A DNA stretch of 64,000 bases from NCBI RefSeq assembly GCF_003966735.1, contig NZ_AP017378.1, forward strand, positions 791,501-855,500, written 5' to 3'. This DNA is from Desulfovibrio ferrophilus. Lineage in GTDB: Bacteria > Desulfobacterota > Desulfovibrionia > Desulfovibrionales > Desulfovibrionaceae. The notes under the pieces are model-generated. The model was not told the DNA's origin. It saw only the letters and a program-made list of their open reading frames with translations, and searched no databases. Both the position numbers and the translations under genes were made by a program. Positions 60,109 through 63,668 of the stretch are shown here, piece by piece. Numbering within the stretch: position 1 is the first letter of the stretch; each line of letters opens with the position of its first letter.

Positions 60109-60144
60109 CCGCCATCTTCCATTCCCCGGAAGATGGCGGTTTTT
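60109..60144 (+). terminator. intrinsic terminator after dapB
   Basis: A 12-bp stem CCGCCATCTTCC with GGAAGATGGCGG (60109-60120, 60128-60139), loop of seven, followed by TTTTT. Confidence 0.93.
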
Positions 60145-60206: not shown

Positions 60207-61088
60207 CTATTGGCTCCATTCCTGGTCTGATCGGATGAAAGACGTGATGGCCTGCGCCATCTCTTCCGGAGCCTGGTACATGAGCCAGTGACCACCATGT
60301 GGGAATGTGACCAACCGTGCCTTGGGGATGAGTTCAGTCATGTTCTGACTATGAGCTGGAGGAGTGATGAAATCATCCTCGCCGACCAGGAGCAATACGT
60401 CGTTATTCATCGTTTTCAGACGCGCGGTTGCTCCTGCCCATTGTTCGATGGCCATACGCTGTCGGGCAATGATTGCGGGGTCAGGGACAGTTGGTGGGGC
60501 GGGGAGATGTCCGAAGATGTCAGGATGCCCATCAAACCATGGCTTGGGGAACATCATGCCTGCCAGTTCTTCAGGGGCGAGGTTGCCCAGCCTGTCCAAA
60601 ACCTTGACGATCTCGGTTGATTCCGGGGCCGAGGCGTACAGAATCAGGTTCCGTGTTCTGTCGGGCGCTGTAAGGGCCAACTCCTGAGTGATGCAACTGC
60701 CCATGGACCAGCCAAGGATATGGGCGCGTGAGATGTTTAAGGCATCAAGTAGGCCGAGGGCATCACTTGTGAATAATTCATAGGAAAAGGGGGTTTCGGA
60801 GGTGCTGGAATAGCCCATGCCGCGGTTATCAAAGGCGATAACCTGGAAGGATTGCGCAAGGCGTTCCACCAGAGTGTGGTCCCAGACATCCATGGTTGCC
60901 CCGTAGCCAGTGATCAGCAGCAGTGGTTCGCCCTGTCCGAGAATCCGATAGCCGATGGAGATATCATTGACCGCTGCTTGTTTGACGGGAGAGTCGATGA
61001 ATTGGCTTCCGAAGCACGGAAGGCTGAAGATGAATATCGTTAGTATCAGGGTCACAGACGTTGTGTATCTGGAAAGGTTATTTTTCAT
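60207..61088 (-). CDS. exported alpha/beta hydrolase
   Basis: 293 residues with a signal peptide (about 1-28, ending SLPCFGS) and a typical alpha/beta-hydrolase domain: oxyanion region LLLITGYGATMDVWD, FDNRGMGYSS, nucleophile Ser in LGWSMGSCI, acid in VGEDDFITPP and His in HGGHWLMY. It is probably a periplasmic esterase or amidase. AAGG lies nine bases before the ATG. It is downstream of the MBL gene on the same strand (153-base gap) and probably shares TetR control. Confidence 0.88.
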   Translation of the reverse strand: MKNNLSRYTTSVTLILTIFIFSLPCFGSQFIDSPVKQAAVNDISIGYRILGQGEPLLLITGYGATMDVWDHTLVERLAQSFQVIAFDNRGMGYSSTSETPFSYELFTSDALGLLDALNISRAHILGWSMGSCITQELALTAPDRTRNLILYASAPESTEIVKVLDRLGNLAPEELAGMMFPKPWFDGHPDIFGHLPAPPTVPDPAIIARQRMAIEQWAGATARLKTMNNDVLLLVGEDDFITPPAHSQNMTELIPKARLVTFPHGGHWLMYQAPEEMAQAITSFIRSDQEWSQ

Positions 61089-61241
61089 GCGAAATGACCT
61101 TGGCTTGACGTGTGTTCTGTTTTCGGCCTGTGAGTATTCTCGCTACTCGGGCAGCACTGTCTGCTGGGGTATAACCACTGGTGGCATCATCTGTTGCCGT
61201 TCATTCCATTCATGATTGCTTGTTTGGTTCATGAACACAAC

Positions 61242-62345
61242 TCAAATGCCTTTTGACAGCCACCATTTTTGACATGCTGCGGCATGGGGGATGCTGATAA
61301 CTTCACCCGGTAGTGGGGTGAGGATGTGAACTCCCTGAACCGATGCTGCTTTTGTGGCTCGTTGCATGGGATCGAACCAGTTGTGAATGGCAAGATTGAA
61401 TGTGCCCCAGTGGACAGGGACAAGGAGTTGCCCTCGTAAATCCTGATGGGCCTGAATCGTTTCTTCCGGCATCATGTGAACGACGGGCCAGTATTGGCTA
61501 TAGGCACCGCATTCGATGAGCGTGAGATCAAAGGGGCCATAGGTGTCGCCGATGGTCTTGAAATGACCGGCATAACCGGAATCACCACTGAAGAAGACAC
61601 GTTTGTTTCGTCCCAAGATGGTCCATGAAGCCCACAGGGTTTCGTTCCGATCAGTAAGGCCGCGGCCCGAGAAGTGCTGGGCAGGAGTAGCGACAAAGCG
61701 CAATCCGGAACGGTGTTCACTGTTATTCCACCAATCCAGGGCAACGATTTTGTTCTGCGGAATACCCCATCCACGCAGATGCTTGTCCACTCCAAGAGGA
61801 ACGTAGAAAACTTCAGTCCTGGAGGCGAGAGAACAAATGGCATCTCGATCCAGATGATCGTAATGATCATGGGAGATGATCACTGCATCCAGCTTGGGCA
61901 GGTCCTCGGTCGTGATGGGCATGGAGTCATGAAATCGCTTGGGTCCAAGCAAGGGCAGGGGAGACACGCGATTTGCGAACACGGGGTCTGTTAGAATCAG
62001 TTTACCTTCGATGTGGATCAGTGCTGTGGAATGCCCCAACCAGGTCACGCCCAGATCACCGGAAGATTCAAGGGCAGCAAGATTTAGTGTTTGAACTGGT
62101 GGTGCTGATTTGGGAAACCTCTGCTCATCACCACAGAGATAGGCACGGGTCATACCAAACAGATTGTCCATGATATTTATCTGGATTTTATTGATATTGT
62201 GGAATTTTCCATCGTTGAATTGCGGTGAGGCTTTTATTTTCATCGAGAATGGGTCCTTGTTTTCAGTGCGTTCCGCCCCGCAAGACATGATTCCGACGAT
62301 CAGGATGCATACTGCGCAGAAGGCTCGAAATGGCTTAGCTTGCAT
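61242..62345 (-). CDS. NAPE-PLD-like metallo-beta-lactamase-fold lipoprotein
   Basis: 367 residues. A lipobox (IMSC) near residue 22 makes it a lipoprotein. The fold has GVTWLGHSTALI, the loop DPVFANRVSPLPLLGPKRF characteristic of the N-acyl-phosphatidylethanolamine-hydrolysing type, the zinc site HDHYDHLDRD, and GDSGY. NAPE-PLD enzymes release fatty-acyl amides from phospholipids; bacterial homologues have various acyl-linked substrates. The gene starts 138 bases from the divergent tetR, and its promoter region overlaps a tetR operator. The ribosome-binding site is weak. Confidence 0.87.
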   Translation of the reverse strand: MQAKPFRAFCAVCILIVGIMSCGAERTENKDPFSMKIKASPQFNDGKFHNINKIQINIMDNLFGMTRAYLCGDEQRFPKSAPPVQTLNLAALESSGDLGVTWLGHSTALIHIEGKLILTDPVFANRVSPLPLLGPKRFHDSMPITTEDLPKLDAVIISHDHYDHLDRDAICSLASRTEVFYVPLGVDKHLRGWGIPQNKIVALDWWNNSEHRSGLRFVATPAQHFSGRGLTDRNETLWASWTILGRNKRVFFSGDSGYAGHFKTIGDTYGPFDLTLIECGAYSQYWPVVHMMPEETIQAHQDLRGQLLVPVHWGTFNLAIHNWFDPMQRATKAASVQGVHILTPLPGEVISIPHAAACQKWWLSKGI

Positions 62346-62384
62346 GGATTGTCTTGTAGAATTGCTGGTTTAATGTTTTTTAGT

Positions 62385-62407
62385 GTAAACTACACTGTGC
62401 AGTTTAC
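62385..62407. promoter_or_regulatory. TetR-type operator 1
   Basis: GTAAACT-N9-AGTTTAC, a perfect 23-base dyad in the divergent spacer. It lies over the presumed promoter of the MBL-lipoprotein gene (a TTTACA hexamer on the minus strand falls within it). Confidence 0.75.
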
Positions 62408-62424
62408 CTGTTGACTCTACGAAA

Positions 62425-62447
62425 GTAAACTGTAGAGTGTAGTTTTT
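62425..62447. promoter_or_regulatory. TetR-type operator 2
   Basis: GTAAACT-N9-AGTTTTT repeats operator 1 with two changes, centred 40 bases away. TTGACT (62411-62416) and TAGAGT (62433-62438, 16-base spacer) give a possible tetR promoter whose -10 lies inside this site, consistent with autorepression. Confidence 0.7.
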
Positions 62448-62483
62448 AGGGATTGATTTCGACAGAGAAAGGAAGGGGGAACG

Positions 62484-63092
62484 ATGACTTTACCGCGAAA
62501 GTTGCGAAAGGATAAACGCGAGGCGATAGTCACTGCTGCGGCTGCTGAGGTTCTGGAACGGGGGTATCAGGGCAGCAGCATGGACCGGATCGCCCAGCGG
62601 GCGAAGGTTTCCAAGCGTACGGTGTATAATCATTTTGGAAGTAAGGACGTGTTGTTTCGGACCGTGATTGGTGAGCACTGGGAGCAGGCTCAACAGGCTA
62701 TTGCTGTGGATTATGATCCGACTATCTCTCTGCGTGTCCAATTGCTTGAACTCGGACGGCGGGAGGCAGGGCTTTTGATGGATACGGAGTTCATGGGGCT
62801 GACCAGAGCCGTATTGTCTGAATGCATCCGCTCGCCTGAGTGGGCGGAGACCATGTTTACGGATATGAAGAAAGTGGAATCTGGCATCCATATCTTGCTT
62901 TCGCAGATGGTGGCAGATGGAAAGCTGGATATTGCGGATATTGATTTTGCTGCACATCAATATTTGGGCATGATCAAGGGTTTTTTGTTCTGGCCACGGA
63001 TTATTGGTTGGAATCCTGATCCTGGTCCAGAGGAATGCGAGCGGGTGGTTGCGGCCGCTGTGGACATGTTTATCGCCTATTATCGGAGTTAG
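62484..63092 (+). CDS. TetR/AcrR family transcriptional regulator
   Basis: 202 residues: N-terminal TetR helix-turn-helix (about 12-58: EAIVTAAAAEVLERGYQGSS, MDRIAQRAKVSKRTVYNHFG) and a C-terminal ligand domain of the TetR_C type. GGAAGGGGG precedes the ATG. It is divergent from the MBL lipoprotein gene, with two matching dyads between them, so it almost certainly represses itself and the two hydrolase genes. The inducer is unknown; an acyl or aromatic compound is a guess from the targets. Confidence 0.93.
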   Translation: MTLPRKLRKDKREAIVTAAAAEVLERGYQGSSMDRIAQRAKVSKRTVYNHFGSKDVLFRTVIGEHWEQAQQAIAVDYDPTISLRVQLLELGRREAGLLMDTEFMGLTRAVLSECIRSPEWAETMFTDMKKVESGIHILLSQMVADGKLDIADIDFAAHQYLGMIKGFLFWPRIIGWNPDPGPEECERVVAAAVDMFIAYYRS

Positions 63093-63276: not shown

Positions 63277-63513
63277 TTACAGTTTGCTGACTTTTTTCCC
63301 CGAGTAGTTGAAGGCATTTTTGATCATTTTCCAATTCGTTCCCTTATCAATCCCAATGCGACTGCCGCACGGACAGTCGATGGCACCGTCCTGCTCCCGG
63401 GCATCAAGCATTTTCGTGATGCGCGCCTTGTGACAGCGCAGGACTTCGCCTTTGCCAAGTTTGTTGTACTTCCAGAGTTTGGTCTTGCAGTTTGCGCAGC
63501 GGATAGTGAGCAT
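63277..63513 (-). CDS. small zinc-ribbon protein, Com-like
   Basis: 78 residues with the pattern MLTIRCANCKTKLWKYNK, a third cysteine in VLRCHK and CPCGS further on. This recalls the Com translational-regulator zinc fingers of phage Mu type, but the fourth cysteine spacing is different. The chosen ATG has no ribosome-binding site; a TTG at 63549 with AAGGAG 14 bases away would add 12 residues. Function unknown. Confidence 0.5.
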   Translation of the reverse strand: MLTIRCANCKTKLWKYNKLGKGEVLRCHKARITKMLDAREQDGAIDCPCGSRIGIDKGTNWKMIKNAFNYSGKKVSKL

Positions 63514-63668
63514 GTCTGGGGTTGTATCCAAGGGCGACGGGACGTGCAACTGCCGTGAACTCTGCTCCTTTCAACCTTGGCGTCTATTGCTATTGTTTGC
63601 TTTTTTCATATAAATTATGCATGAACCTGCAATAATTGTGGTTGGGTGACATTATACAGGGAGACCAT

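Follow-up and report, generated by a model that had tools for sequence, protein, structure and literature searches.

Three genes and a pair of inverted repeats make up the locus studied here. They lie within the window, by which we mean the whole 64,000-nucleotide stretch of Desulfovibrio ferrophilus DNA that was analysed. Open reading frames and Pfam matches confirm the three genes described in an earlier note on this DNA: an alpha/beta-hydrolase gene (ABH), a gene for a NAPE-PLD-like lipoprotein of the metallo-beta-lactamase fold (MBL) and a TetR-family gene. The features are, in order:

60207-61088, minus strand: ABH, predicted exported alpha/beta-hydrolase, esterase-like, 293 aa; Pfam Abhydrolase_1/6
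61089-61241, minus strand: gap of 153 bp from the MBL stop to the ABH start
61242-62345, minus strand: MBL, NAPE-PLD/RomA-type metallo-beta-lactamase-fold protein, predicted lipoprotein, 367 aa; Pfam Lactamase_B_2
62385-62407: dyad 1, exact GTAAACT-N9-AGTTTAC
62387-62405: operator 1, predicted strong site, AAACTACACTGTGCAGTTT, kept in the other genome of the genus and in gamma- and betaproteobacterial TetR-MBL loci
62401-62429, minus strand: likely MBL promoter, TTTACT (62429-62424), 17 bp, TAAACT (62406-62401), assigned by eye
62411-62438, plus strand: likely TetR promoter, TTGACT, 16 bp, TAGAGT, overlapping operator 2
62425-62447: dyad 2, GTAAACT-N9-AGTTTTT, differing in 2 of the 14 fixed letters, both in the right arm
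62427-62445: operator 2, predicted weaker site, AAACTGTAGAGTGTAGTTT, 40 bp from operator 1
62484-63092, plus strand: TetR, predicted AefR-like repressor, 202 aa; Pfam TetR_N and TetR_C_7

On the ABH side, a strong intrinsic-terminator-like hairpin 3' of dapB (60109-60139) separates dapB from ABH. At the other end the unit is adjoined by a 90-residue frame with cysteine pairs (63277-63549, minus strand), zinc-ribbon-like in appearance and without a match in Pfam or NCBIfam.

The two dyads, whose starts a pattern search places 40 bp apart as claimed, had been described as copies of one sequence, GTAAACT-N9-AGTTTAC. This is exact for dyad 1 and does not hold for dyad 2, with its two mismatches. 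A 19-bp core, AAACTRCACNGTGYAGTTT, is a better fit to both, and in the whole genome (3.72 Mb) it is found in exact form only at operators 1 and 2. With up to two mismatches to the 19 letters there are 4 forward and 6 reverse matches, against 15 and 15 for a reversed control pattern. A search for the dyad elsewhere, which the earlier note had called for, thus revealed no spread over unrelated promoters in this genome or in those of 14 relatives. A genome-wide regulon of the dyad is ruled out, the exact core being present in the genome only at the two window sites. This uniqueness is established from the sequence, as are the gene set, the catalytic residues of the enzymes and the conservation of the operator.

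The dyads had also been placed over both likely promoters, in agreement with the overlap between them and the candidate hexamers of the TetR and MBL genes. In the MBL candidate, which matches 8 of the 12 consensus letters, the -35 hexamer would lie inside operator 2 and the -10 hexamer inside operator 1; aligned sequences of relatives have TTTACT at a similar position upstream of the dyad.

Only one other genome of the genus was found (G001, hereafter the congener). It holds ABH, MBL and TetR in identical order, with 73.6%, 64.1% and 71.5% identity to the window proteins, respectively. Both dyads are kept 40 bp apart, in slightly degenerate form, and the candidate TetR promoter has closely similar hexamers, TTGACT and TAGGGT. 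The genes flanking the unit are likewise conserved between the two genomes, so the adjacency of ABH in the congener may reflect mere synteny and not function. Directly downstream of the congener TetR gene lies a universal-stress-protein-like gene (L109:9412-9837) that is absent from the window.

TetR-family repressors bind dyads as dimers, block the promoters there and are released by a small molecule. The window protein scores 53.8 bits with TetR_N (cut-off 24) and 111 bits with TetR_C_7, the AefR-like C-terminal domain (cut-off 22). Its nearest solved relative is AefR itself (3cdl; E 4e-37, 41% identity over 195 residues); at only 41% identity, its ligand may differ from that of AefR. We call it AefR-like and not an AefR orthologue by target, as its neighbour is the MBL gene and the dyad has no further exact site in the genome.

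To see how far the arrangement extends beyond the genus, we searched a collection of genomes of bacteria and archaea and took the 80 relatives that best matched MBL. An AefR-like TetR neighbour, defined by E below 1e-20, is present at 30 of the 80 loci; at 29 it is divergent and directly upstream, and at one (L071) it is arranged otherwise. With 14 letters scored and 13 or more taken as presence, 24 of the 30 TetR-paired loci have the dyad core, as opposed to 0 of the 50 without TetR (Fisher p 4e-15, a value that overstates independence, as related loci are counted as sequences and not as independent events). Outside the MBL start region, the background amounts to two sites with a score of at least 13 in 771,653 positions. 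The paired loci with the dyad come from Vibrio, Psychrosphaera, Pseudomonas, Burkholderiales and others, and most paired loci have a second, weaker site 29-51 bp away that aligns with dyad 2 of the window (TTTTACACYGRNYAGTTTACTTT). TetR-paired proteins group together on the MBL tree, where the paired label changes 10 times, against 28 in shuffles. When 14 genomes with a TetR-MBL pair were scanned whole, 11 had exactly one exact core each: the TetR-MBL site. The predicted two-site DNA switch is thus kept almost letter-perfect in distantly related bacteria.

A scan of 369 genomes for the dyad alone added five genomes to the starting one, and in four of these the dyad lies upstream of an MBL gene, a TetR gene or both. 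The contexts differ: TetR with MBL (L174); MBL without an adjacent TetR (L170); the space between an AefR-like TetR gene and a divergent RND adaptor and pump (L172/L181); and the space between TetR and an aldehyde dehydrogenase (L173/L180, genome G604). It is thus the regulator clade that the operator goes with, and the target can change. The match in the fifth genome (L169) is a chance one, inside a coding frame. In G604 the TetR gene is split over two frames (L180:3018-3565; ORFs of 98 and 114 aa in L173), perhaps by a frameshift or a sequencing error. A conserved site with one mismatch, common to three Pseudomonas genomes (G279:C99, G280:C4, G281:C15), was considered as an aefR-mexEF site and ruled out: the gene that contains it codes for a major-facilitator protein, and there is no TetR in the vicinity.

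Part of this conservation could be explained by the overlap of the dyads with likely -35 and -10 hexamers, in which case they would be promoter features, or chance, and not TetR operators. We consider this extremely improbable: the far arm of the palindrome is conserved too, the dyad tracks TetR among the MBL loci, and it is retained where the target is an RND pump. Conservation of the dyads lends strong support to the claim that TetR acts on them over the divergent promoters.

Turning to the putative target, the MBL protein owes its description as NAPE-PLD-like to human NAPE-PLD (4qn9), its best sequence match in the PDB (E 5.9e-61), and this description is borne out by its AlphaFold model (pLDDT 85), whose best fold matches are 4qn9 and 8p90 (E about 1e-29, TM 0.68-0.78). 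It carries the HxHxDH motif and further H, D and H ligands at the NAPE-PLD positions; these predicted metal ligands, H159, H161, D163, H164, H224, D255 and H312, do not vary among 12 aligned relatives. The N-terminus, ...LIVGIMSC-G, agrees with the proposed lipoprotein, the congener having a canonical ...LLLGLAAC-T. A clear lipobox is missing from most other TetR-paired MBL proteins, which means that being a lipoprotein is not a fixed trait of this module.

The substrate is a separate matter. Yeast Fmp30p has the conserved core of NAPE-PLD and no NAPE activity, and is a phospholipase D of PI (PMC13392021). NAPE can therefore not be inferred as the MBL substrate from the fold. Both eukaryotic enzymes share with the window protein the MBL fold and HxHxDH with further ligands; they differ from it, which is bacterial and has a predicted lipoprotein signal, and also between themselves in substrate, NAPE for the human enzyme and PI for the yeast one.

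The ABH protein has a predicted catalytic triad of S128 (in GWSMG), D239 and H267, invariant in 12 aligned relatives. Its closest solved relatives are the metagenomic Est1 esterases (6eb3, 8v16), which it matches over the whole domain with 34-35% identity and from which it differs by a putative N-terminal export signal. That signal-peptide-like N-terminus, read by eye, is in keeping with the periplasmic location suggested before, and together with the lipobox-like N-terminus of MBL it makes the notion of two exported hydrolases a reasonable one. Most ABH homologues of the family (L143-L152) show a lipobox-like cysteine; the window and the congener keep the cysteine, with a proline before it. 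Lipidation of ABH may thus have been lost in the genus.

Whether ABH belongs to the switch at all is less clear. Its gene could be an independent one with its own promoter beside the TetR-MBL pair, so that the switch would control one enzyme only; we give this somewhat less than an even chance. The distance from MBL points that way and makes co-transcription uncertain: it is 153 bp in the window, and in the congener it comes to roughly 310-520 bp according to which ABH start is taken. So does the distribution of the family, as no ABH homologue adjoins MBL in the 30 TetR-paired loci, neither MBL nor TetR was found in the flanks examined of all ten more distant ABH loci (L143-L152), and in one genome (G242) the ABH and MBL homologues are more than 2 Mb apart. 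Among the loci searched, the adjacency is seen only in this genus, and its absence from those 30 loci rules out that ABH generally accompanies the module. Arguing against independence, ABH and MBL are on the same strand, we found neither a terminator-like hairpin on that strand nor a dyad or consensus promoter in the gap (61089-61241), and both genomes of the genus have the two genes adjacent.

The earlier note had gone further and proposed that an acylated amide or phospholipid is cleaved in successive steps. In its fullest form, the two enzymes would act one after the other on an N-acyl lipid or signal (NAPE, an N-acylethanolamine or an AHL), for signal degradation or defence. The proximity of MBL to human NAPE-PLD among solved structures, the serine esterase fold of ABH and the probable export of both are compatible with such a pathway, but the example of Fmp30p, the absence of an ABH partner from the module elsewhere and a TetR that is AefR-like and not an AHL receptor all speak against it, and we hold it to be very unlikely. 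Sequential cleavage itself found no support, the ABH neighbour being confined to the genus among the loci searched and its nearest solved relatives being general esterases; since ABH and MBL homologues lie apart in related genomes, a two-step pathway would be genus-specific at best. For a signal-degrading (quorum-quenching) or defence role we found no evidence. Neither MBL nor TetR had a match in PADLOC, and the ABH match was only a generic one, to a TAP-like alpha/beta-hydrolase (38 residues, 20 bits), so that a defence role has no support from it. Overall, the regulatory side of the earlier proposal is stronger than first claimed, and its enzymatic interpretation is unsupported.

RomA-type MBL proteins occur widely. 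Of the arrangements described so far, RamR-romA-ramA of Klebsiella and Enterobacter is the closest; there, RamR represses romA and the TetR-type repressor gene is divergent from the MBL gene romA (PMC4310594, PMC3117140); these papers assign no activity to RomA-type proteins. It shares with the window a TetR gene divergent from a RomA-type MBL gene and a palindromic operator over the promoter. The operator is different, AAACTRCACNGTGYAGTTT in the window as opposed to ATGAGTG-N6-CACTCAT for RamR, as is the downstream gene, the ABH esterase in place of the AraC-type activator ramA, and the window regulator is AefR-like. This was the only pairing of a TetR with a bacterial NAPE-PLD-like gene found in the openly accessible literature, to which most subscription journals do not belong; within the same literature, no paper was found on an AefR-like version.

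The IncHI2 plasmid pC27A-CTX-M-55 of E. coli has, directly ahead of its annotated ramA, a stretch that is most likely the C-terminal remnant of a romA gene (L182:2501-3229) and for which the PLSDB table lists no gene. The MBL protein of the window is 44% identical to this probable remnant over 116 C-terminal residues. Similar partial matches to the window MBL occur on many enterobacterial plasmids.

The second system for comparison is AefR of Pseudomonas, described in P. fluorescens as a flavonoid-binding repressor of mexEF-oprN (PMC11915855). The resemblance lies in TetR_C_7, the 41% identity to 3cdl and the matching dyad at an AefR-like TetR/RND operon elsewhere; the window system differs in its target, an MBL hydrolase, and in having its dyad at a single place in the genome. 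The arrangement is thus real and conserved. It is a local, dedicated switch of AefR-like type that can be set beside RamR-RomA and AefR-mexEF, and a version of a known, probably chemical-responsive kind of switch, not a new system.

From this pattern we infer repression, induction, localisation, substrate and the co-transcription of ABH as follows. It is likely, in our judgement, that the AefR-like TetR, acting on the two dyads, shuts its own gene and the MBL gene until an inducer allows an envelope metallo-hydrolase to be made, for remodelling or detoxification. A TetR dimer would bind the strong operator 1 and the weaker operator 2 and so close both divergent promoters; a lipophilic or aromatic inducer would release it. 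The MBL then made, a RomA/NAPE-PLD-type metallo-hydrolase, would be exported, lipid-anchored in the envelope and able to hydrolyse a membrane-associated or lipophilic phosphodiester or ester. The likely purpose would be envelope remodelling or detoxification upon encounter with the inducing compound. ABH, a predicted exported serine esterase in this genus, may come from the MBL transcript by read-through. Of the regulators that have been studied, the flavonoid-binding AefR is the nearest.

A broader evolutionary reading would have the AefR-type operator AAACTRCACNGTGYAGTTT kept across classes while its targets were exchanged (a RomA/NAPE-PLD-like hydrolase, an RND efflux pump, an aldehyde dehydrogenase), the genus having gained an esterase partner and with it a ligand-induced, two-enzyme envelope-lipid pathway. 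Taken as a whole, this appears unlikely. For the local switch, an operator common to hydrolases and to the kind of regulator that governs an RND efflux pump favours a reaction to membrane-active compounds over quorum quenching or defence. A conserved, dedicated repressor with a two-site operator also offers a handle on the enzyme: once the releasing ligand is found, the class of substrate that the enzyme acts on could be guessed.
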